From contig NZ_RHNP01000035.1 of assembly GCF_003950295.1 (NCBI RefSeq), positions 1 through 32,503 on the forward strand: a stretch of DNA of 32,503 bases, in the 5' to 3' direction. This document shows positions 4,481-27,318 of the stretch, piece by piece. The translations under genes were made by a program, and so were the position numbers. This DNA is from Loigolactobacillus iwatensis (lineage in GTDB: Bacteria > Bacillota > Bacilli > Lactobacillales > Lactobacillaceae). The notes under the pieces were generated by a model. The model made no database searches, had not been told where the DNA came from, and saw only the letters and a program-made list of their open reading frames with translations. Every line of letters starts with the position of its first letter. Within the stretch, counting starts at the first letter, position 1.

Positions 4481-5137
4481 TTAAGCACTTAATCGTTTCT
4501 CTAGTACCCGTGATAACAAGGATAACGCGTAGCAAACGATAAAGTACAAAACGGCTAAAGCTAAGAACATTGGCAAGACGTAATTAGAATTTTGTCCGTA
4601 GATAATCTGAGCGTGGTACATCAACTCCGGTAACATAATGATTGTTGCCAGTGAGGTATCCTTGATTAACGAAACAAACTGACTAACTAGCGGTGGAATC
4701 ATCTTTCTAATTGCTTGTGGTAAGATAATGTGCCACATTGCTTGAACATAGGTCATTCCGTTACTCCGAGCGGCCTCCATCTGTCCTGCATCGACGGCAA
4801 CAATCCCACTGCGGATGATCTCGGCGACCATTGCCGACTCAAACACCGTCATTGCTAAAATTGCAGCCGGAATAACTTCTGGCTTAAAGCCTAAATTGGG
4901 CAATCCAAAATAAGTGAAAAATAAGATCAATAGTAATGGCAAATTACGAATAATATCAATCACAAATCCAATAATTGCCGAGACGTATTTGATTTTAACA
5001 TAGCGTAAAATACCAAGTAACCCGCCAATAATGAAACTAAAAATAATTGAAAGTACTGAAACTTCTACTGTGACCCAGAGTCCCTCAAGAAGGTAGCGGA
5101 TATTGAGCCATGAATAAGCTTGGATAAAGTTATGCAT
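4481..5137 (-). CDS. glnP: Polar amino acid ABC transporter permease (second permease)
   Basis: A 218-aa inner-membrane permease of the His/Glu/Gln (HisMQ-type) ABC family. It has about five hydrophobic segments and the cytoplasmic EAA-loop signature, seen as MEAARSNGMTYVQAMWHIILPQA (residues 141-163), which docks onto the ATPase. It pairs with the neighbouring permease as a heterodimer. The order ATPase, binding protein, permease, permease equals Bacillus subtilis glnQHMP, so this is the GlnP position. Start fixed by GAAGGAGG 8-9 nt upstream. Exact substrate (Gln, Glu or Asp) is not determined. Confidence 0.85.
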   Translation of the reverse strand: MHNFIQAYSWLNIRYLLEGLWVTVEVSVLSIIFSFIIGGLLGILRYVKIKYVSAIIGFVIDIIRNLPLLLILFFTYFGLPNLGFKPEVIPAAILAMTVFESAMVAEIIRSGIVAVDAGQMEAARSNGMTYVQAMWHIILPQAIRKMIPPLVSQFVSLIKDTSLATIIMLPELMYHAQIIYGQNSNYVLPMFLALAVLYFIVCYALSLLSRVLEKRLSA

Positions 5138-5155
5138 TTACAATTCCTCCTTCAA

Positions 5156-5794
5156 CTAGGCCAACCGTTTTTCAAGATAACGCATGAAGTAACTTAACGG
5201 TAAAGTCAAAATTAAATACATTAAACCAACCGCCAAGTAAGTGTCCGATGTATTAAACGTCGTTGCTGCCACAACATTGCCTTGGTACATCAAATCAAAA
5301 CCAGCAACAAAGGCCAAAACAGACGAATTCTTCACTAAATTAATGAACTGATTGCCCAGCGGTGGAATCGTGATCTTAATTGCCTGCGGAAAAATAATCT
5401 GAACCATTGCCTGAGTGTAAGTAAGACCAGTTGAACGGGCAGCTTCCATCTGTCCAGTATCAACGGCCTCAATTCCAGCACGAACAGTTTCCGCAATAAA
5501 TGCCGATGTGTAAATTGTTAAGCCAATTGTACCGGCAGTAAATCCGTTTACTTTAGCAATAAACATGGGAATAACCACGTAAAAGAACATCGTAACAACC
5601 AACAATGGAATATTCCGAAAAACTTCAACGTAAACCCGGCCAATAAATTTAACCCAGCGATGCGAACTAATTTCCATAAAGGCAAAGAGTGTCCCTAAAA
5701 TCAAACTACCCACCAAAGCTAATAAACTTGAACCTAGGGTAGATAGTAAGCCTGACCATAATTCCGGCCAATAACGAACCAAAATATTAATCAT
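5156..5794 (-). CDS. glnM: Polar amino acid ABC transporter permease (first permease)
   Basis: A 212-aa membrane permease homologous to its downstream neighbour, with the same EAA-loop motif (MEAARSTGLTYTQAMVQIIFPQA). It corresponds by position to GlnM of B. subtilis glnQHMP. Its ATG lies 2 nt after the stop of the binding-protein gene, with a GAAGGGGG ribosome site inside that gene's end, so translation is probably coupled. The next permease starts 18 nt further on. Confidence 0.85.
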   Translation of the reverse strand: MINILVRYWPELWSGLLSTLGSSLLALVGSLILGTLFAFMEISSHRWVKFIGRVYVEVFRNIPLLVVTMFFYVVIPMFIAKVNGFTAGTIGLTIYTSAFIAETVRAGIEAVDTGQMEAARSTGLTYTQAMVQIIFPQAIKITIPPLGNQFINLVKNSSVLAFVAGFDLMYQGNVVAATTFNTSDTYLAVGLMYLILTLPLSYFMRYLEKRLA

Positions 5795-5796
5795 AC

Positions 5797-6624
5797 CTAA
5801 TTACCCCCTTCTTCAAAGCCTTGGACATTGCCGAACCATTTATTAACAATCTTCTGGTATTCACCAGTCTTTTTCATCTGCTTAACCGCAGCATTAACTT
5901 TGCGTAAAAATGGTTTTTGACCCTTGTTAACGGCAATACCGTATGGTTCCTTGGTAAAAGCACCACCAGCAACAACGTAATTGGGGTCTTCCACGGACAT
6001 CCCGTAAAGAATCCCGTTATCCGTTGTTAAAGCAACCCCTTGACCAGATTTCAACGCAGTGAAGGCCTGGGCGTAATCAGATAATTCTAAGATATTTGCT
6101 TTTGGTGCATACTTTCTAACGTTTTGAACTGAATTTGAACCCTGAACGCCTAAAATTTGGGCGCCCTTATAGTTTAAATCACGGATGTTCTTAATTGAAC
6201 TACCTTTTTTGACCAGAATGGCCTGACCAGCGTGAAAATATGGTTCCGAGAAATCGACGACCTTTGCACGATCTGGCGTAATTGTCATTGTCGCGATCAA
6301 GGCATCAACATTACCATTTTTCAGTAACGGAATCCGGGTGTTACTCGTTACCTGAACAAGCTTGGCCTTACCATTCTTGCCCAGAATTTGTTTAGTAATC
6401 GCCCTGGCCATATCAATATCAAAACCTTGAACTTTACCAGTTTTAATATTCATTAAACCAAATAAACGTGTATCTGCCTTAACGCCCCAAGTGATTGTGT
6501 TACTTTGGCGATCATTTGTTAACACGTCTTGTTGCGACAAACTCTTTTTACCGCACCCACTTAAAATTAAAACCAAACTAAACAGGAAGGCAACCGGTAA
6601 AAGATAACGGACAAACTTTTTCAT
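5797..6624 (-). CDS. glnH: Amino acid ABC transporter substrate-binding lipoprotein
   Basis: A 275-aa solute-binding protein of the SBP_bac_3 family. The N-terminus is a lipoprotein signal: KK at residues 2-3, a hydrophobic core, and lipobox LSGC with the lipidated Cys24. The mature part contains GFDIDMARAI, DALIATMTITPDRAKVVDFS and EPYGIAV, the usual landmarks of glutamine/glutamate-type binding proteins. It captures substrate outside the membrane and delivers it to the two permeases. Ribosome site AAGGAGG, spacing 9. It starts 14 nt after the ATPase gene ends. Confidence 0.88.
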   Translation of the reverse strand: MKKFVRYLLPVAFLFSLVLILSGCGKKSLSQQDVLTNDRQSNTITWGVKADTRLFGLMNIKTGKVQGFDIDMARAITKQILGKNGKAKLVQVTSNTRIPLLKNGNVDALIATMTITPDRAKVVDFSEPYFHAGQAILVKKGSSIKNIRDLNYKGAQILGVQGSNSVQNVRKYAPKANILELSDYAQAFTALKSGQGVALTTDNGILYGMSVEDPNYVVAGGAFTKEPYGIAVNKGQKPFLRKVNAAVKQMKKTGEYQKIVNKWFGNVQGFEEGGN

Positions 6625-6638
6625 TGTCCCTCGCCTCC

Positions 6639-7373
6639 TTAGTGGTTAATAATCTTGCTCAAGAACTGCCGTGCCCGTTCTTCTTTTGGATGAGCAAAGA
6701 AGGATTTAGTATCATCATCTTCCAAGACTTCACCATCCGCCATAAAGATCAGCCGGTTAGCAACTTCTTGCGCGAAGCCCATTTCGTGGGTAACGACAAC
6801 CATGGTCATCCCTTCATGGGCAACCTTTTTCATAACATCCAGCACGTCACCAATCATTTCTGGATCAAGCGCCGAAGTTGGTTCATCAAATAATAGCGCT
6901 TGTGGTTTCATCGCTAAGCTACGGGCAATCGCAACTCGCTGCTCTTGCCCACCCGACAACATACTTGGTAATGACTCGGCCTTATCAGCCAGTCCAACCA
7001 AATCGAGCAGATCCATGGCCTCTTTTTTACTCTGTTCCTCATTTTCTTTTAAAACTAGTCGCGGTCCTAAAGTAATATTTTCCAGTACGGATTTATTGGC
7101 GTAAAGGTTAAAGTGCTGAAAAACCATCCCGACATCCCGCCGAATCTTGTTCATGTTGGTCTTTTTATCTGCAATATCAAAATTATTAATCACTAATTTT
7201 CCTGAAGAAATTGTGTTTAATCCATTAATAGAGCGGAGCAATGTACTTTTGCCTGAACCTGATGGCCCGATAATCACGACAACCTCGCCTTTATCAATTG
7301 TAAGGTTGATGTTCTTTAGGGCGTGAAAATCACCAAAGTACTTTTCAACGTTGTGAAATTCAATCATTGACAT
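6639..7373 (-). CDS. glnQ: Amino acid ABC transporter ATP-binding protein
   Basis: A 244-aa ABC ATPase of the GlnQ/HisP type. Visible motifs are Walker A (GPSGSGKST), a Q-loop (GMVFQHFNLY), the signature (LSGGQEQRVAIARSLA; Q replaces the more usual Q/K position), Walker B (ALLFDEPTSALD) and the switch His (VVTHEM). It powers the importer formed with the three genes downstream. The reading frame stays open 13 codons further upstream, but the GGAGGG ribosome site sits 9 nt before the MSMIEF ATG at 7373, so I start there. First gene of the operon; no convincing promoter was found upstream. Confidence 0.88.
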   Translation of the reverse strand: MSMIEFHNVEKYFGDFHALKNINLTIDKGEVVVIIGPSGSGKSTLLRSINGLNTISSGKLVINNFDIADKKTNMNKIRRDVGMVFQHFNLYANKSVLENITLGPRLVLKENEEQSKKEAMDLLDLVGLADKAESLPSMLSGGQEQRVAIARSLAMKPQALLFDEPTSALDPEMIGDVLDVMKKVAHEGMTMVVVTHEMGFAQEVANRLIFMADGEVLEDDDTKSFFAHPKEERARQFLSKIINH

Positions 7374-7437
7374 AAAATTTTCCCTCCAAACTAAACTCAC
7401 TGAGCACGCCAAGTAAAATGCATTCTTCGGCTATAGG

Positions 7438-7733: not shown

Positions 7734-8095
7734 TAGATTCTAAGAATTCTTTGGACCAGAAAGTGATATCCTGACAGTACTCAAATAACAAGGCCCTAAC
7801 CTCTTTAAATATAGTTAAAGGCCAAAGTTACATTTCAATTTTAATTTATTTTTAATCTCAGCGCAAATTAAATTGGCTTACTTTAGTGTAATAATTGTCA
7901 TATTTAGGAAAAATGAGAAAAATCTTATTTTTTTAGAATTAAAGAAGCAGTGTTTTAGCATAATCAAGCGCTTAACTAATTGAATAGATATTTTTTATTA
8001 AAGTGCTACTAAATCAAATAACCTTCAATTAATTTAGCGCCGATTTTTTGTAAAAGATTTGCAAAGATGGAAGTGCAACACCCACCCATTTTAGC
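7734..8095. other. Non-coding AT-rich interval
   Basis: About 360 nt between repeat R2 and the hairpin at 8096. It is AT-rich with no plausible ORF. One sequence, TTAGCATAATCAAGCGCTTAAC (about 7953-7974), partly resembles a cre core, and TTAGCGTAATCAAGGAAGCG recurs in similar form at the hairpin below. I see no gene in it. Confidence 0.6.
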
Positions 8096-8145
8096 GTAAT
8101 CAAGGAAGCGGCCAGAACTTTCGCCCCAGCCGCTTCCTTGATTAC
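8096..8145 (-). terminator. Strong hairpin downstream of the D-hydroxyacid dehydrogenase
   Basis: A stem of about 17 bp (GTAATCAAGGAAGCGGC / GCCGCTTCCTTGATTAC) with a 16-nt loop, about 70 nt after the dehydrogenase stop. No long U-run follows on the minus strand, so it may protect the mRNA 3' end rather than be a full intrinsic terminator. Confidence 0.6.
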
Positions 8146-8212
8146 TTAATATTACGACGTACCCAATCTATCGCTTTGGCAAAATCATCTTGCTTGTTTC
8201 TTCAAATACTTC

Positions 8213-9202
8213 CTAGTCTACTGGATGTGTTGCCTGGCCGCCTTCGATAATTTTTTTAGCATCATCTAAACTAATATCGACCATATTTTGAACCGCAACG
8301 TTAGTGTAGAAACCAATATGAGGCGTTAAAATTACGTTGGGCATCTTCCGTAATTCAACAAACTGTTGATTTTTAATTGTTTTACCAGTTAAATCAAAGT
8401 TATTAAATTCTTGTTCACCTTCAATTGCGTCAATCGCAACCCCGGCCAACTGTTTTTCTTTTAAAGCGGTAACTAGAGCCTTTGTATCGATCACAGGTCC
8501 CCGGGAAGCATTAATCAAAACAGCGCTAGGCTTCATTAACTTAAATTCCGCTGTACTTAATAAATGCGTTGAACTAGGATTTAAATCTGGATGCAAATCA
8601 ACAACATCAGCCTTTTTTAACAGTGTTTCCTTATCAACGTAGGTCAAAATATCCTTTAAGTCATCGTTTTCAACCAAATCATTGGCCAACACTGTGGCAC
8701 CTAGAGCGTGAAATAATCGCGCAGCAGTGCCGCCAATTCGGCCAGCGCCAATAATACCGATTGTTAAGGTGTGAATTTCGTGGGCAATTAAGCCGCCCCA
8801 ACGAAAATCCTGGTGGGCGCCCCGAGCATCGAATAATTCTAGATTACGAATTAAGCGGAAAGTTTGAGCCAACGAGTATTCAGCAACAGAACGTGGTGAA
8901 TAAGCAGGAACATTGGTCACAATTAAATCATTAGCCTTGGCGGCCGGTAAATCAACCACATCGTAACCGGCACTACGTAAACCAAGTTGTTTAATGCCAT
9001 ATTCGTGTAACTTTTGGTAAACGACAGCACTGTCAATTGCCGCGTGCTGCACAATAACTACGCCATCATAACCTTGGGCTAAACCAACTGTTTGACTACT
9101 CATATCTTCCTGATTGGTGGCCACCGTGACTTGGTTTCGTTTGGCCCAAGCATTAATTGCGGGCATCTCATCGTCGCGAACACTGTACATTAATATTTTC
9201 AT
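8213..9202 (-). CDS. D-2-hydroxyacid dehydrogenase (D-lactate/D-HicDH type)
   Basis: A 329-aa NAD-dependent enzyme that reduces 2-keto acids to D-2-hydroxy acids in the cytoplasm. The sequence shows the Rossmann motif GAGRIG (residues 152-157), the substrate-binding/catalytic Arg234 (NASRGPVID), the acidic partner in DAIEGEQEF (about Glu263) and the catalytic His295 (TPHIGFYT). Length and LTPHIGFYT match the D-lactate/D-hydroxyisocaproate dehydrogenase group of lactobacilli. It follows the aminotransferase by 20 nt, which suggests that it reduces branched-chain or aromatic keto acids (for example phenylpyruvate to D-phenyllactate) as well as or instead of pyruvate; that specificity is inference. 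Its TAG stop lies within CTAGGAAGTATTTGAAG, resembling the end of the local repeat family. Confidence 0.87.
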   Translation of the reverse strand: MKILMYSVRDDEMPAINAWAKRNQVTVATNQEDMSSQTVGLAQGYDGVVIVQHAAIDSAVVYQKLHEYGIKQLGLRSAGYDVVDLPAAKANDLIVTNVPAYSPRSVAEYSLAQTFRLIRNLELFDARGAHQDFRWGGLIAHEIHTLTIGIIGAGRIGGTAARLFHALGATVLANDLVENDDLKDILTYVDKETLLKKADVVDLHPDLNPSSTHLLSTAEFKLMKPSAVLINASRGPVIDTKALVTALKEKQLAGVAIDAIEGEQEFNNFDLTGKTIKNQQFVELRKMPNVILTPHIGFYTNVAVQNMVDISLDDAKKIIEGGQATHPVD

Positions 9203-9222
9203 TATTATCTTCTCCTAATTTA

Positions 9223-10404
9223 CTATTTTTGTGCCAAATAATTTTTTAAGCGTTTAACGGCTTCTTTTAGGTCAGTCAAACTAGCCGCATAGCTAATTCG
9301 AACGTATCCTTCACCGCCGCCACCGAAGCTAGCACCAGGAATCAAGGCTACCTTGGCCTCCTGGGCTAATTCATAACAGCACTTAAAGCTATCCTGAGGC
9401 AAACTTACTGGAATCTTGGCAAACAGGTAAAAAGCCCCTTCAGGTTTAACGCACTCAAAGCCAATTGCCTGCAGCGCGCCGAATAAGTAATCACGGCGTT
9501 TCTCGTAAGCCTTTTTCATCTCCTGCCCATCATTTAAGCCATTTTTAAAAGCTTCCAAGGCCGCATCCTGTGCAACCGTAGTCGCGCTAGTGATCGCAAA
9601 TTGATGCACCTTACCAATTTCCTGAGCAATAGCTGCTGGTGCCGCCAAGACGCCTATCCGCCAGCCAGTCATCGCGTGGGATTTAGACACACCATTGAGT
9701 AAAATCGTTTGTTCCGGCAAAAGCTCGGCCATCGAAACATGCGGCTCTCCATAAGTTAACTCACTATAGATTTCATCGCATAATACGAAAACATTGTATT
9801 GCCGTAATACCTTAGCCAGCGCCTCCAAGTCCTTGCGGCGATAAGTTACACCCGTTGGATTGGTTGGGTAATTTAGTACGAGCACCTTGGCCCGGGGATG
9901 ATTTTTTAATGTTGTTGCTAATAGCTCAGGCGATAAAACAAAATGATTGGCCGATGTATCCATAAAGACTGGCACACCCTGGTTCACAGTTGTATCTGGT
10001 ATGTAAAGTGGAAAAATTGGTGTCGGAATTAATACCTCGTCACCTTTTGAAACAATCGTTGTTAGTGCCGAAAAAATGGCCTCAGTAGTCCCCGCCGTCA
10101 CCAAAATTTCGCTGGTTGGATCATAATGGACATTATATTTTGTTGCTAAGTAATTTGCCGCAGCCTGCCGAACCTCAATTTTACCTGCTGAATTAGTGTA
10201 ATGACTGTCATTTTGTTTAATGGCATTGATACCCGCGGCCTTAATGTGTTCAGGAGTCGTAAAGTCGGGCTCCCCTAACGTTAGCTTTAAGATTCCTGGA
10301 ATCTGCGAAATATCTTGGTTGAATTTTAAAATTGAAGAAGGCTTAACCGCTGCCACCTCCGGCTTTAATAATTTGACTAGTGCACTTAACTTATCTTCTT
10401 GCAT
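9223..10404 (-). CDS. Class I PLP aminotransferase, probably aromatic amino acid (AraT/PatA-like)
   Basis: A 393-aa fold-type I aminotransferase. Visible are NYPTNPTG (178-185), CDEIYSEL (209-216), the PLP-binding Lys241 in GVSKSHAMTGWRIG, and the C-terminal carboxylate-binding Arg in YVRISYA. This subgroup includes the aromatic aminotransferase AraT and PatA of lactic acid bacteria. It interconverts an amino acid and its keto acid with 2-oxoglutarate/glutamate. Aromatic specificity is supported by the leader peptide upstream (10566-10622) and by the D-hydroxyacid dehydrogenase downstream. The frame is open 8 codons further, but AGGAAGG sits 9 nt before MQEDK, so I start at 10404. Expression is probably controlled by the attenuator at 10444-10513. 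Confidence 0.85.
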   Translation of the reverse strand: MQEDKLSALVKLLKPEVAAVKPSSILKFNQDISQIPGILKLTLGEPDFTTPEHIKAAGINAIKQNDSHYTNSAGKIEVRQAAANYLATKYNVHYDPTSEILVTAGTTEAIFSALTTIVSKGDEVLIPTPIFPLYIPDTTVNQGVPVFMDTSANHFVLSPELLATTLKNHPRAKVLVLNYPTNPTGVTYRRKDLEALAKVLRQYNVFVLCDEIYSELTYGEPHVSMAELLPEQTILLNGVSKSHAMTGWRIGVLAAPAAIAQEIGKVHQFAITSATTVAQDAALEAFKNGLNDGQEMKKAYEKRRDYLFGALQAIGFECVKPEGAFYLFAKIPVSLPQDSFKCCYELAQEAKVALIPGASFGGGGEGYVRISYAASLTDLKEAVKRLKNYLAQK

Positions 10405-10443
10405 TTCAATCATCCTTCCTACTACCAAAATTTGTAATTAAAA

Positions 10444-10471
10444 AACCACAGCGACTAATTCCGCTGTGGTT
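10444..10471 (-). terminator. Attenuator: intrinsic terminator in the aminotransferase leader
   Basis: On the minus strand AACCACAGCG pairs with CGCTGTGGTT over 10 bp (8-nt loop) and is followed by a U-run, so transcription from 10680 would stop about 40 nt before the aminotransferase start. The upstream arm (10459-10468) can instead pair with 10502-10511; see the antiterminator entry. Confidence 0.8.
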
Positions 10472-10560
10472 GTTAATTGGCTAATTTATTAAGGTAGCCC
10501 ACACAGCGGAAGTTAATTCTGCACCATGTGGTCAAAACACGTTAAAACACTTCTGGCCGC
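10459..10560 (-). promoter_or_regulatory. Antiterminator and anti-antiterminator pairing region
   Basis: On the minus strand TTCCGCTGTG (10502-10511) is the exact complement of CACAGCGGAA (10459-10468), which is also the 5' arm of the terminator, so the two pairings exclude each other. A further segment just after the leader stop codon (GCGG at 10557-10560 and AAGT at 10549-10552) can pair with CCGC (10506-10509) and ACTT (10510-10513) and thereby occupy the antiterminator strand. A ribosome held on the leader peptide would mask 10549-10560, free 10502-10513 and favour read-through. The three-way arrangement is read directly; the direction of control is inference. Confidence 0.7.
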
Positions 10561-10565
10561 ATAGT

Positions 10566-10622
10566 CTACGCGAAATACCAAAAGTAAAAGTAGTTGTTTA
10601 ATTGTACATTGATTAGCTGCAT
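10566..10622 (-). CDS. Aromatic leader peptide (18 aa)
   Basis: An 18-codon ORF with sequence MQLINVQLNN-YFYFWYF-A: seven consecutive aromatic codons (Tyr, Phe, Tyr, Phe, Trp, Tyr, Phe) close to the stop. AAGGAG lies 8 nt before the ATG, and the ORF sits directly downstream of a strong promoter (10652-10680). The start lies about 23 nt after the expected transcription start. Too short for a functional protein, it has the features of an attenuation leader whose translation senses charged aromatic tRNAs. It is followed by mutually exclusive hairpins and by an aminotransferase gene, as expected for such control. Confidence 0.85.
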   Translation of the reverse strand: MQLINVQLNNYFYFWYFA

Positions 10623-10651
10623 ATTAAAAACTCCTTAAATTAACTATCTTG

Positions 10652-10680
10652 ATTTTAACCTTACTATCAGATTACGTCAA
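10652..10680 (-). promoter_or_regulatory. Promoter of leader peptide/aminotransferase unit
   Basis: Minus strand TTGACG (10675-10680), 17-nt spacer, TAAAAT (10652-10657). Both hexamers match the sigma-70 consensus at five of six positions. It lies 20 nt after the stop of the gene at 10700. Confidence 0.8.
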
Positions 10681-10699
10681 GTTAAACTTAAAATCAGCC

Positions 10700-11650
10700 T
10701 TAACGTTGATGTCGCGCCCGCCGACTGGGTGCCTGGGGCTCACGACTAGTTGGTTGCGTAACCGTCTGTGTTTGTGTTTGCGCCTGGGCCTGAGTTAACT
10801 TAGTCGGTTTTTCTTGAGGTGCATTTTTATCGCGGTAGGCGACTTGAACCGCAACACTATAGGGATTATTTCCTGCCATTACCCCTGAACGACCGGCAAC
10901 CTTATAGGGACCACCAGTCAAATAGGCATTGGCCAGCACAAGTTGGTACTGATTTTGCGCGTCTTGCACTTGCATAAGACCAATTGAGGTAATTTCGCCA
11001 ACGTTAAGACTATCAATTGCATTTTTACCAGCATAAATGTAAAGGTGTTCACCCTCTTGGCGCATTTCATAAAATGGTAATTGTGTCGCTTCACCAATGG
11101 CGTAAAATGGCTCTGGATTGGCATGAGCGTGGCGGTAAATCGCCTCATCTGAAAGTCCACCATAATTAAGACTAAGGTACCCACTGGCAACTAAGTTAGT
11201 GACCATCTCATTGATATTTTGCTGAGTTAATTCATCCACAGTTACCTTCGCTGGTAATAGTTTATCTTGATTAAAAAGACCTGCGGCTGGCATAACCCTT
11301 GTCCGTCCAGCCGTTGCATTCGATTTGCCACTGCCAAGCATTGGATCGTCACTGGCCGAGGCCGCCTTACCACCTAACATTTTTTCAATTTTAGGTGAAA
11401 TATCAAATTTAGCAGTTTTAGTTGTAAAGTAATAAATCACGTTTAAGGTTAAGAAATAGGCCAGAACAAAGAATAAGAGCATAAATAATAATCCCCGTCC
11501 CCAAACTTGCAGCCGTAAAAAGTGAAAAGCCAAATAGCCAATATAAATGTCACCTAAGATACCTAAAATGGTATAGACACGGTTTTTCAGCTTAACGTTC
11601 ATATTAAAAAAACCTAAGTAGTGATTAAGCATATCTAAAAGACTAAGCAC
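10700..11650 (-). CDS. Conserved lactobacillar membrane protein, unknown function (DUF6681-like)
   Basis: A 316-aa protein starting with GTG; AAAGGAGG lies 8 nt upstream and the next ATG is too far from it. The N-terminal third has two hydrophobic segments (about residues 25-45 and 52-75). A soluble part follows, with KFDISPKIEKMLGG, then a mixed region of about 150 residues, and a Gln/Thr-rich low-complexity tail ending in Arg-rich RRARHQR. It resembles a family found in lactobacilli that I recall as DUF6681; that name is from memory and not verified. It starts 21 nt after the Ser/Thr-rich exported protein, probably as one operon. A role at the cell envelope is plausible but not shown. Confidence 0.65.
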   Translation of the reverse strand: MLSLLDMLNHYLGFFNMNVKLKNRVYTILGILGDIYIGYLAFHFLRLQVWGRGLLFMLLFFVLAYFLTLNVIYYFTTKTAKFDISPKIEKMLGGKAASASDDPMLGSGKSNATAGRTRVMPAAGLFNQDKLLPAKVTVDELTQQNINEMVTNLVASGYLSLNYGGLSDEAIYRHAHANPEPFYAIGEATQLPFYEMRQEGEHLYIYAGKNAIDSLNVGEITSIGLMQVQDAQNQYQLVLANAYLTGGPYKVAGRSGVMAGNNPYSVAVQVAYRDKNAPQEKPTKLTQAQAQTQTQTVTQPTSREPQAPSRRARHQR

Positions 11651-11671
11651 AAATAATCCCTCCTTTCCAGA

Positions 11672-12172
11672 TTAATTCGCCGTTGTGGTTGTATCCTGCG
11701 TTGCTCCAGTGGTGCCTGTTCCGGTTTGATTTTGGGAAGTTGAATTTTGTGTGTCTTGCCCAGTTGTCGCCGAACTAGCAGTAGTTGGTGTACTCGAACT
11801 ACTAGCTGCTGTACTGCCCGTCGTTGAAGTATCACTGGCCGAACTAGCATCAGTGGTTGCAGCCCCACTAGTTTGATCAGTTGATGTTTGGTTAGCCTGA
11901 TCACTACTTGCGCTTGGCGTCGAAGTCGTCACACTACTGCTACTTTCAGCTGGTTCACTAGTAGATTCACTGGCCTTGCTGTCCCGTGAAGAAGACGCTG
12001 CTGAGTGACTACTTGATGACGTAGCGGCCGAGCTATCATTATTAGTTTTAGTTGTTGTCTGTTCCTGCTTGACTGGTGCAACTTTGTCAGCAACAACATT
12101 AGTCGCTGCTAGGCCAAGCACGATCGAAACAATCGCAAATGGCGTGATAAATGGCGGTGTCCGGTATGCCAT
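11672..12172 (-). CDS. Ser/Thr-rich exported or membrane-anchored protein
   Basis: A 166-aa protein. Residues 1-7 are followed by one hydrophobic segment (about 8-28, FITPFAIVSIVLGLAATNVV), then about 125 residues made almost only of Ser, Thr, Ala, Gln, Asn and Asp with no fold. No LPxTG motif is present. The N-terminal segment could be an uncleaved anchor with the low-complexity stalk outside. Such regions in lactobacilli can be glycosylated or span the wall; this is inference. The frame opens 20 codons earlier, but GAGGGGG lies 8 nt before MAYRTPP, so I start there. First gene of a pair with 10700-11650. Confidence 0.65.
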   Translation of the reverse strand: MAYRTPPFITPFAIVSIVLGLAATNVVADKVAPVKQEQTTTKTNNDSSAATSSSSHSAASSSRDSKASESTSEPAESSSSVTTSTPSASSDQANQTSTDQTSGAATTDASSASDTSTTGSTAASSSSTPTTASSATTGQDTQNSTSQNQTGTGTTGATQDTTTTAN

Positions 12173-12202
12173 TGTCAATTCCCCCTCATTTAATTTTATT
12201 AA

Positions 12203-12232
12203 ACCATATAAATGCATAGAAAGCTTGACCAA
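12203..12232 (-). promoter_or_regulatory. Candidate promoter of the exported-protein operon
   Basis: Minus strand TTGGTC (12227-12232), 18-nt spacer, TATGGT (12203-12208), 30 nt before the ATG. Moderate match only. Confidence 0.4.
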
Positions 12233-12346
12233 AAGCTAAAGAATTCATTAAAGAATGTGTGCTTTGCTAGTAAACAAAAAGAGGCCAGGCATAAAGTCTA
12301 ACTTCTACGTTTCAACATCATTATTATACCGCAATTTAACGACAGC

Positions 12347-12778
12347 CTACTTTAACTTTTGCTTACAAGTACCACATAGTCCGTAAAGCTCAAAGTTATG
12401 GCTGTCAATTTCACAGTCAGGAATCTGTTTTGAAAAGAAATCCAACGGGCACATGGCAAGCTCAATTACCTTACCGCAGTTTCGACAAATAAAATGATGG
12501 TGGTGGGGGTGCTCAAAATCACACTGATATTTGACAGTTGCCTGCTCACCACGATTGCGCTGTTCCACAATTCCAATCTCGGCAAAGGCTCTAATATTTC
12601 GGTAAATTGTATTATGACTCATACCTGGATATAAGGCGCGCATATGACCATCCACGGCTGTAACGTTAATGTAGCTGTGTTGAAACTGACTTAGATAAAG
12701 CAGCATATCCCGCCGCTGCTTAGTGACCTTATACCCATTTTGTTTCAATAAGGTTAACGCATTCCCCTTTACTTGCAT
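12347..12778 (-). CDS. Fur-family metalloregulator (Fur, Zur or PerR type)
   Basis: A 143-aa dimeric DNA-binding repressor of the ferric uptake regulator family. A winged-helix domain (residues 1-80) contains SHNTIYRNIRAFAEIGIV. The dimer domain has HPHHHHF (90-96) and two CxxC pairs (Cys98/Cys101 and Cys135/Cys138) that bind the structural zinc. The His-rich motif is common to Fur and Zur; the sensed metal or peroxide cannot be fixed from sequence. A Zur/Fur-like inverted repeat (12804-12824) overlaps its own promoter region, suggesting autoregulation. No metal transporter is adjacent. Confidence 0.85.
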   Translation of the reverse strand: MQVKGNALTLLKQNGYKVTKQRRDMLLYLSQFQHSYINVTAVDGHMRALYPGMSHNTIYRNIRAFAEIGIVEQRNRGEQATVKYQCDFEHPHHHHFICRNCGKVIELAMCPLDFFSKQIPDCEIDSHNFELYGLCGTCKQKLK

Positions 12779-27087: not shown

Positions 27088-27318
27088 AAAAAAAGTCCCC
27101 GACCAAGTCAAAAACTTGATCAGGGACGAAATTTTTCCGCGTTACCACCCAAAGTTATAGCTACTGCTATCACTCGCCTCATTTTTATCGAAATGACCCG
27201 TGACATTCGTGTAAAAAGTGTAATTTGCAGTGTAACATCGGTTAGTTTTCAGCCACCACTAACTTTCTGAACGGTTGGTTACGCCACTACTGTACTTTTT
27301 GTGTCCGTTATGAAATTA
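27088..27318 (-). ncRNA. T-box riboswitch (Tyr) upstream of tyrS
   Basis: On the minus strand the T-box core GGGTGGTAACGCGG (27137-27150) precedes a terminator (27095-27127; GTCCCTGATCAAGT with ACTTGGTCGGGGAC, then seven T). A long Stem I region lies upstream, where AAAAAGT pairs with ACTTTTT; next to it, on the 3' side of the loop, is UAC (27220-27222), a Tyr specifier codon followed by A. Uncharged tRNA-Tyr would stabilise the antiterminator and allow tyrS expression. Confidence 0.9.

Follow-up and report, generated by a model that had tools for sequence, protein, structure and literature searches.

A predicted ribosome-mediated attenuator with an aromatic leader peptide upstream of an aminotransferase operon in Loigolactobacillus iwatensis and its relatives

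Introduction

How is transcription controlled in an operon for an aminotransferase and a D-2-hydroxyacid dehydrogenase that is preceded by a short open reading frame (ORF) ending in a run of aromatic codons, and by a hairpin with a T-run? The question is raised by a 32,503-nucleotide (nt) stretch of DNA from Loigolactobacillus iwatensis (Lactobacillaceae; contig NZ_RHNP01000035.1, below called the window), which carries these elements on its minus strand. An initial annotation of the window proposed ribosome-mediated attenuation, and the comparative evidence strongly supports this. We consider it very probable that the locus is a ribosome-mediated transcription attenuator that responds to a shortage of aromatic aminoacyl-tRNA. 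The basis is a conserved leader ORF, conserved and mutually exclusive RNA pairings with compensatory changes, and a computed dependence on ribosome position in relatives with short leaders; what we infer in the model is translation of the leader, ribosome stalling when tRNA is uncharged, the direction of the response and the substrates of the enzymes. In Lactobacillales the control of amino-acid genes is usually ascribed to T-boxes and regulators.

The Leader Locus in the Window

Read 5' to 3' on the minus strand, the order is promoter-like site, AAGGAG, leader ORF, terminator hairpin with T-run, aminotransferase gene and D-2-hydroxyacid dehydrogenase gene. The parts of the leader are:

10652-10680 (minus): sigma-70-like promoter TTGACG-17-TAAAAT, 10 of 12 consensus matches
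10631-10636 (minus): Shine-Dalgarno sequence AAGGAG, serving the leader ORF
10566-10622 (minus): leader ORF MQLINVQLNNYFYFWYFA with stop TAG (18 codons at 10622-10569, stop at 10568-10566)
10572-10592 (minus): aromatic codons TAC TTT TAC TTT TGG TAT TTC, the predicted stall codons
10578-10584 (minus): s0, codon segment CTTTTGG, partner of s0'
10557-10565 (minus): s1, ACTATGCGG, directly 3' of the stop, partner of s2 (one mismatch, one G-U)
10550-10556 (minus): s0', CCAGAAG, partner of the aromatic codons
10517-10531 (minus): s2, CCACATGGTGCAGAA, partner of s1 or of s3 (left arm of hairpin P1)
10499-10511 (minus): s3, TTCCGCTGTGTGG, right arm of P1 and antiterminator strand
10459-10470 (minus): s4, ACCACAGCGGAA, 5' arm of the terminator and partner in the antiterminator
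10440-10454 (minus): s5, 3' arm of the terminator and T-run

The promoter, the AAGGAG, the 18-codon ORF, its aromatic run, the alternative pairings and the terminator with a U-run had all been named in the initial annotation and were confirmed in the sequence. The leader ends in Y-F-Y-F-W-Y-F-A. Within the RNA, CACAGCGGAA (10468-10459) is complementary both to TTCCGCTGTG (10511-10502) and to the 3' arm of the terminator (10453-10444), whose hairpin is built from 11 pairs (6 are G-C) with a final run of six T, two of which lie within the stem. The 214-nt leader as a whole folds better than 200 of 200 dinucleotide shuffles (z -4.68). A Shine-Dalgarno-like motif was also flagged ahead of most leaders in relatives. 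The promoter-like site is the best of 9 found across positions 8000-12500; shuffled sequence likewise averages 9.0 sites, so that the site by itself proves nothing.

Conservation of the Leader ORF

Among 397 genomes of the family, 114 have a match to the aminotransferase at E 1e-140 or better, giving 118 loci (below, L numbers denote loci, g1, g3 and so on denote genera, and G000 is the window's genome). An aromatic leader ORF lies upstream in 92 of these 118 orthologous loci, in 14 genera; 88 were found by rule and 4 were added by hand from the ORF list. The leaders share the core [FY]YFW[FY]F, as in MSLPLNSLKSRTSFYFWYFR, MQTIRVTQVNSRFYFWFFQY, and MHKQIGLTQQLNTFYYFWFFHKCL. In 20 representatives the distance from the leader stop to the start of the gene match is 117-405 nt, and a terminator hairpin with a T-run is found between leader and gene in 89 of the 92 (median -21.1, weakest -3.6 kcal/mol) by a lenient search run without a control.

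A wider scan took the best 80 listed named loci, which overlap with the 397 genomes, and read 650 nt upstream under a stricter rule. Twenty-two loci pass, 17 of them with leaders of the window's class, in Loigolactobacillus, Agrilactobacillus, Secundilactobacillus, Lactiplantibacillus, Lentilactobacillus, Liquorilactobacillus, Pediococcus and Bombilactobacillus, in two Weissella, three Sporolactobacillus, and one uncultured Lactobacillus bin. The other five are a doubtful case in Periweissella, a chance-like one in Streptococcus suis (L287) and three loci with a different leader in Bifidobacterium. The remaining 58 of the 80 have no leader by the stricter rule, which overlooks some real leaders; at L136, for example, there is a real leader without a recognized Shine-Dalgarno sequence. 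The three Bifidobacterium loci (L243, L245, and L246) encode members of the same aminotransferase family (55-57% identical) and carry another aromatic leader, MQGTRFTYWWHGFDL, identical in all three, which lies 176-179 nt before the gene; inspection by eye revealed no terminator with a U-run.

The core was also searched for regardless of the gene that follows. The pattern TWYTWYTTYTGGTWYTTY is matched in 201 of the 397 genomes, and the 30 loci listed for it comprise 3 leaders ahead of the aminotransferase, 2 other ORFs and 25 matches without an in-frame start codon. A further 20 chosen loci comprise 5 leaders, L199, 2 longer ORFs and 12 matches without a start codon; all 5 leaders precede an aminotransferase of the same family, as judged by eye, and 2 of them are in one extra genus. 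The 2 other ORFs among the 30 listed loci are one of 33 residues starting from TTG, 42 nt ahead of an rpoB-looking gene (L057), and one of 60 residues (L065). The ORF at L199 (genome G256), MPFYFWYF, has 8 residues and is followed 48 nt downstream by a CoA-transferase-like gene; no clear Shine-Dalgarno sequence or terminator accompanies it by eye, and it is perhaps due to chance.

Mutually Exclusive Helices and Covariation

Ten of the 14 genera are represented in alignment A1, with 52 of their 53 leaders; the remaining one, an identical row, was dropped. Five helices can be followed through it, each excluding the next: s0:s0', s1:s2, s2:s3 (P1), s3:s4 (the antiterminator), and s4:s5 (the terminator). 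The initial annotation had described alternative hairpins as mutually exclusive, which holds, and the cascade turns out to comprise five helices. In s0:s0' the Tyr-Phe-Trp codons CUUUUGG pair with CCAGAAG or CCAAAAG 3' of the stop, so that one covarying helix is built from the aromatic codons themselves; in s1:s2, UGAUCUGUG at the stop pairs with CACAGAUCA. These two helices have no strand in common, and as s1 lies inside the loop of s0:s0', both at once would form a pseudoknot.

The paired cells amount to 97.3% (of 412) for s0:s0', 94.1% for s1:s2, 94.8% for s2:s3, 86.8% for s3:s4 and 89.4% for s4:s5, and fall to between 17.8 and 59.4% when the partner is slid by 1-3 columns. In none of the five helices was the covariation score equaled by any of 500 shuffles. 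Double-sided changes occur at 4 of 8 pairs in s0:s0', 5 of 9 in s1:s2, 5 of 11 in s2:s3, 5 of 8 in s3:s4 and 13 of 14 in s4:s5. Compensation extends to the codon helix, where a change from TGG to CGG (Arg) is met by CCG in g3, TTG (Leu) is met by CAA in L101, and a Trp codon TGG changed to TAT (Tyr) is met by ATA in L158. Because the leader is conserved in 92 of 118 loci and the covariation of five helices is unmatched by 500 shuffles, comparison indicates that the window's leader ORF is not a chance ORF. The idea of an attenuator has thus survived the examination of orthologous leaders for the aromatic run (92 of 118 loci) and for the paired segments (covariation in 52 rows).

The proposed mechanism is as follows. 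The leader would be transcribed and translated. When Phe-tRNA or Tyr-tRNA (perhaps also Trp-tRNA) is scarce, the ribosome would stall on the aromatic codons, mask s0 and block s0:s0'; free s1 would then take s2, s3 would be released to form the antiterminator s3:s4, and the polymerase would read into the operon. When charged tRNA is plentiful, a ribosome at the stop would mask s1, leaving s2:s3 and s4:s5 to form and transcription to terminate. Without translation, s0:s0' would enclose s1 and termination would be the default.

Folding as a Function of Ribosome Position

The dependence on the ribosome was computed by folding the transcript to the end of s5 after removal of the RNA before the front edge of the ribosome (taken as 13 nt beyond the first base of the A-site codon), in 47 of the 52 rows of A1; the badly aligning L095, L100, L138, L155, and L163 were left out. 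The mean probability of the antiterminator s3:s4 is 0.87-0.90 with the A site 8-5 codons before the stop, approximately in the aromatic run, 0.41 with the ribosome at the stop codon and 0.50 without a ribosome. When the segment after the stop is shuffled, the value is 0.30-0.39 throughout. The difference between stall and stop averages 0.48, exceeding 0.1 in 31 of the 47 rows and lying below -0.1 in none. In the window itself, with a transcript ending before s5, s1:s2 has a probability of 0.82-1.00 when the A site is at one of codons -8 to -3 and at no other position.

Several observations weigh against the attenuator. Twenty-six of the 118 orthologous loci have no leader that was found: 6 in g27, 5 in g3, 4 each in g10 and g15, 3 in g22, 2 in g5 and 1 each in g12 and g21. 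Three of the five g3 loci and the g12 locus are second copies, the other copy of the g3 loci having a leader, and the g21 locus (L027), whose contig begins 148 nt before the gene, is counted as unread; no Rfam family was found at cut-off in the 20 of these 26 loci that were scanned. The 39 leaders of g16, g23, g31, and g38 are not in A1, and the formal covariation is that of 10 of the 14 genera. Its rows are related, so that the shuffle counts overstate independence and are not probabilities, and the helices were defined from a single row (L085), which favors them over their slid versions. In the folding sweep, averages over five shuffles give a mean stall-minus-stop difference of 0.02, yet exceed 0.1 in 14 of the 47 rows. 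An alignment-free sweep of the 89 leaders with terminators gives a mean difference of 0.117 against 0.019 for shuffled sequence, above 0.1 in 32 and below -0.1 in 8, with the effect absent from g31, g38, and the genus of the window (g1); s3 free before synthesis of s4 differs by more than 0.1 in 21 of the 89 and by less than -0.1 in 6. In the window, s3:s4 is independent of ribosome position, being 1.0 without s5 and at most 0.06 with it.

These last values are for equilibrium, and because equilibrium folding in the window ignores ribosome position, switching there would have to be kinetic. The folding check that had been suggested for the window thus came out divided, s1:s2 depending on the ribosome and the equilibrium probability of s3:s4 not. 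The same is true of a fourth segment (10560-10549, ATGCGGCCAGAA in the window) that had been assigned to the antiterminator strand: with a stalled ribosome and s4 not yet made, s1/s0' does pair with s3 in the window, via several G-U pairs, but its counterpart in the aligned relatives has other partners, namely the aromatic codons (through CCAGAAG) and the left arm of P1. The mechanism appears well supported for the genera with short leaders, and in the window it is suggested by homology of the parts rather than by energy.

Amino Acids Predicted to Be Sensed and Possible Function of the Operon

In the last 13 residues of the leaders Phe is present in 92 of 92, Tyr in 91 and Trp in 82. The predicted sensor is therefore one for Phe and Tyr in which Trp is optional (absent in 10 of 92); sensing of Tyr and Phe is as initially annotated, and the claim that all three aromatic amino acids are read together was too strong. 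In five g31 leaders (L121, L128, L132, L134, and L136) Tyr replaces Trp, giving YYYFYFF or FYYFYFF.

The operon consists of two genes:

9223-10428 (minus): class I/II aminotransferase, ORF from TTG at 10428
8213-9202 (minus): D-2-hydroxyacid dehydrogenase, second gene of the operon

By eye, the ATG at 10404, preceded by AGGAAGG, is a likelier start of the aminotransferase than the TTG. The best NCBIfam models fall below their cut-offs (PRK07309, 562.8 against 576 bits; PRK08605, 286 against 356 bits), and for this reason both enzymes are named at the level of class, without substrates. The best match to the aminotransferase in the PDB is 4my5 and the second is 1dju, deposited as an aromatic aminotransferase; matches to the dehydrogenase include D-lactate and D-2-hydroxyisocaproate dehydrogenases. 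The aminotransferase of a genus mate is 97% identical to that of the window. Thirty loci, the best matches, from five genera (g1, g13, g16, g21, and g38), were read, and in all of them the dehydrogenase is the next gene; in 2 of 5 further loci it is visible within the retrieved stretch. Genes for an amino-acid ATP-binding cassette (ABC) transporter lie at 4481-7412 (minus strand), across an 800-nt gap downstream of the operon; the ATPase and the binding protein were recognized by family search and two permeases by eye.

The aminotransferase had been called biosynthetic, or balancing, for the aromatic amino acids. The biosynthetic part is unsafe: prephenate dehydratase (PF00800) is matched in 40 of the 397 family genomes and in 30 of the 92 leader genomes, and no match was found in the other 62 leader genomes, though the window's genome carries both prephenate dehydratase and prephenate dehydrogenase. 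Since the operon would be induced by a shortage of Phe or Tyr in genomes seemingly unable to make phenylpyruvate from prephenate, salvage of aryl-pyruvates or aryl-lactates would be indicated no less than biosynthesis. It is tempting to speculate that, under the same attenuator, the dehydrogenase oxidizes aryl-lactates and the aminotransferase re-aminates the arylpyruvates to Phe or Tyr upon starvation. We offer this function tentatively. It would suit the 62 genomes without a dehydratase match, whose control nevertheless resembles that of supply genes, and the adjacency of the two genes in 30 of 30 loci read; the substrates and the direction of the reaction are, on the other hand, inferred, the survey across genomes is that of prephenate dehydratase, and D-2-hydroxyacid dehydrogenases of lactobacilli usually run toward the hydroxy acid.

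Proposed Relation to the trpB Motif

The Rfam family RF04312, the "trpB motif" (SRC-39-1), falls exactly on P1 and the terminator of the window with a score of 28.1 bits. As the cut-off is 59 bits, the window leader was not accepted as a member. According to the available portion of its discovery paper, RF04312 has over 900 representatives, is listed as a strong candidate for a riboswitch and mostly precedes an uncharacterized ABC transporter and sometimes trpB, and its authors state that a protein factor or classical attenuation remains possible (Narunsky et al., 2024; PMC11109978). Within the literature searched, the names RF04312, trpB motif and SRC-39-1 are mentioned only in that paper.

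A search of 299 class-level genomes gave 15 genomes with RF04312 at E 0.001 and 8 over the cut-off, and one of 395 order-level genomes gave 211 and 59, respectively. Forty-two loci, mostly the best-scoring rather than a random sample, were read. In 40 of the 42 the motif is preceded, at 10-30 nt, by the stop of an ATG ORF behind a (leniently defined) Shine-Dalgarno sequence, and each of these ORFs has at least two F, Y, W, or H in its last twelve residues; Trp is present in 37, mostly in a WQNWRR-like context. In 840 shuffles of the upstream sequence an ORF was found in 43, with Trp in 3 and two F/Y/W/H in 22, and at 336 other positions an ORF was found in 17, with Trp in 5 and two F/Y/W/H in 5. 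The two loci without an ORF by the rule are L218, where TTGGCAAAGCTGGCACAG is visible and the rule finds no start codon, and L179, which is under the cut-off, precedes a lactonase gene and is probably a false match.

In 40 of the 42 loci the stretch downstream contains an ORF of at least 110 codons, and the first such ORF is considered here; L166 and L170 lack one. Thirty-two of the 40 proteins score over the cut-off for TrpX, the substrate-binding protein of a tryptophan ABC transporter, and 3 (L206, L213, and L216) over that for TrpB; apart from L218, the loci that pass follow Trp leaders. Two leaders with YYFSYF and FYFSYF (L176 and L178) precede TrpX-like proteins below the cut-off (384.2 and 269.4 against 390), and a leader with HHHH (L173, genome G427), with an RF04312-like RNA of 54.5 bits, under the cut-off, precedes a HisZ-like protein (218.3 against 271.65). 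The best RF04312 score, 86.6 bits, belongs to a Trp leader (L202, genome G051) whose first long downstream ORF is a group II intron reverse transcriptase. The window's genome has an RF04312-like leader of its own (L174, G000:C4:42110-42208; 48.2 bits), with the ORF MKTSNRQKLNRQFWQSQH, ahead of a TrpX of 439.9 bits.

The Rfam model lacks a helix between the stop region and the left arm of P1 that, in alignment A2 (41 of the 42 loci, L179 left out), is paired to 95.9% and shows 31 double-change cells; its score was reached by 0 of 500 shuffles, and its number of double-change pairs (4) was matched by 88 of 500. The antiterminator is modestly supported (81.4% paired, score reached by 5 of 500). 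RF04312 resembles the window leader in that the right shoulder of P1 is the antiterminator strand and is followed by a terminator, in the helix between stop region and P1-left and in the leader ORF upstream, and differs in that its leaders mostly read Trp (37 of 42) and precede trpX (32 of 40). On balance we think that the two are branches of one attenuator family in Bacilli that swaps specificity, which would make RF04312 a leader-peptide attenuator. The codon runs of such a family would, with about the same leaning on our part, be Trp for trpX and trpB, Phe/Tyr/Trp for the aminotransferase operon, Tyr/Phe for the two divergent TrpX-like proteins and His for a hisZ-like gene. Common descent is less certain than likeness of mechanism. 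It is hinted at by the weak cross-match and by a QLN-like tripeptide, because [QKE]LN recurs in both the aromatic and the RF04312 leaders above the level of shuffles.

Alternative Explanations for the Leader

The same tripeptide bears on the alternative that has most to be said for it, namely that, as in leaders of the TnaC and Erm types, the nascent leader peptide arrests the ribosome when a drug or a free amino acid is sensed in the exit tunnel, so that tRNA charging is not what is sensed. [QKE]LN lies upstream of the run in 49 of 92 aromatic leaders and in 12 of 39 RF04312 leaders of the Trp or Tyr/Phe type, compared with means of 2.0 and 1.3 and maxima of 8 and 6 in 1000 sets of shuffled peptides, the sequences being related; the Trp leaders of RF04312 loci moreover hold merely one to three Trp codons. 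However, [QKE][LMV]N is wholly absent from the leaders of g38, g12, g16, g8, and g17, and within the run F, Y, W, R, and L replace one another, a pattern more in line with codon load than with a fixed arrest peptide. We regard arrest as unlikely.

A riboswitch that binds a metabolite, or an attenuator that binds a protein, with the ORF incidental, would be in keeping with the strong conserved hairpins and terminator and with the publication of the similar RF04312 as a strong riboswitch candidate (available portion of PMC11109978). It is nevertheless very improbable, since the strongest conservation is that of an in-frame peptide behind a Shine-Dalgarno sequence, and the codons and the stop region are themselves paired strands. 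The codons of RF04312 leaders also fit the gene that follows (Trp for trpX and trpB, four His for the hisZ-like gene), and the two leaders with Tyr/Phe precede precisely the two TrpX-like proteins below the TrpX cut-off. A known metabolite riboswitch, a T-box and the known Rfam leaders were rejected, as no Rfam family reaches its cut-off at the window's leader or in 10 loci scanned; in 20 relatives, 7 weak matches were obtained with E values of up to 1, all of them below cut-off and including RF04312 at 30.9 bits in L138. Least probable of all is that the leader ORF boosts translation of the operon by coupling or reinitiation without any control of termination: leader genes can raise expression (available text of PMC4833913), but here a terminator-like hairpin separates leader and gene in 89 of 92 loci, in 20 representatives 117-405 nt lie between the leader stop and the start of the gene match, and the antiterminator covaries.

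Discussion

The proposed ribosome-mediated attenuator shares with the enterobacterial his, leu, pheA, and trp leader-peptide attenuators a leader ORF with codons for the regulated amino acid near its stop, a chain of exclusive hairpins and an intrinsic terminator, and, with his, a cascade of several tiers. It differs from them in its mixed Phe/Tyr(/Trp) run and in a codon helix that encloses the stop-region segment rather than sharing a strand with it. Rfam includes Phe, Trp, and His leader families of proteobacteria; none of these is listed for the window leader up to E 5, and no Rfam family matches it at cut-off.

There are precedents in Firmicutes. The ilv-leu operon of Staphylococcus aureus has a leucine-rich attenuator peptide backed by mutants, and branched-chain leaders have been predicted in Lactococcus lactis and Streptococcus, i.e., within Lactobacillales (available text of PMC5794164 and work cited there); the ilv-leu leader likewise controls amino-acid genes by attenuation, but those of branched-chain amino acids and through an unrelated leader. 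Attenuators with His leaders have been predicted in Bacillus, Peptostreptococcaceae, and Erysipelotrichales, with T-boxes in Lactobacillales (available text of PMC9413887 and PMC2965389), and resemble the aromatic leader in their codon leader, antiterminator and terminator, while preceding histidine genes. The T-box (RF00230) likewise senses the charging of tRNA, and trpX of S. suis carries one (available text of PMC9382623). There is no RF00230 match at the aromatic leader. The window's only T-box is the one noticed before tyrS in the initial annotation; it is present at 27119-27306 (minus strand) with 86 bits, under the cut-off of 93. Leader-peptide attenuation is thus known, Firmicutes included, and what is apparently new is the mixed aromatic run, the codon helix that encloses the stop, the five tiers and the apparent swaps of specificity. 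No description of the aromatic leader or of an RF04312 leader peptide was found in the titles and abstract openings listed, with most subscription papers, supplements and Panina et al. (2003), a study of aromatic regulation in low-GC Gram-positive bacteria, outside the search.

The conserved aromatic leader, a predicted attenuator, spans 15 genera of Lactobacillaceae and occurs in Sporolactobacillus too. The operon is predicted to answer to the supply of Phe and Tyr, and the two enzymes might produce or recycle phenyllactate and other aryl-lactates, which attract interest in food preservation and gut signaling. If the proposed relation is true, RF04312, an orphan riboswitch candidate, becomes directly testable, with a stalled ribosome as its "ligand," and a single RNA chassis whose leader appears to switch its reading among Trp, Tyr/Phe and His would offer a natural series in which to follow the evolution of attenuators.

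Neighboring Genes

Farther upstream on the minus strand, at 11672-12232, is a Ser/Thr/Ala-rich ORF of 186 residues with no Pfam match. Between it and the operon, immediately upstream of the leader promoter, a DUF6681 protein is encoded at 10700-11650 (minus strand).

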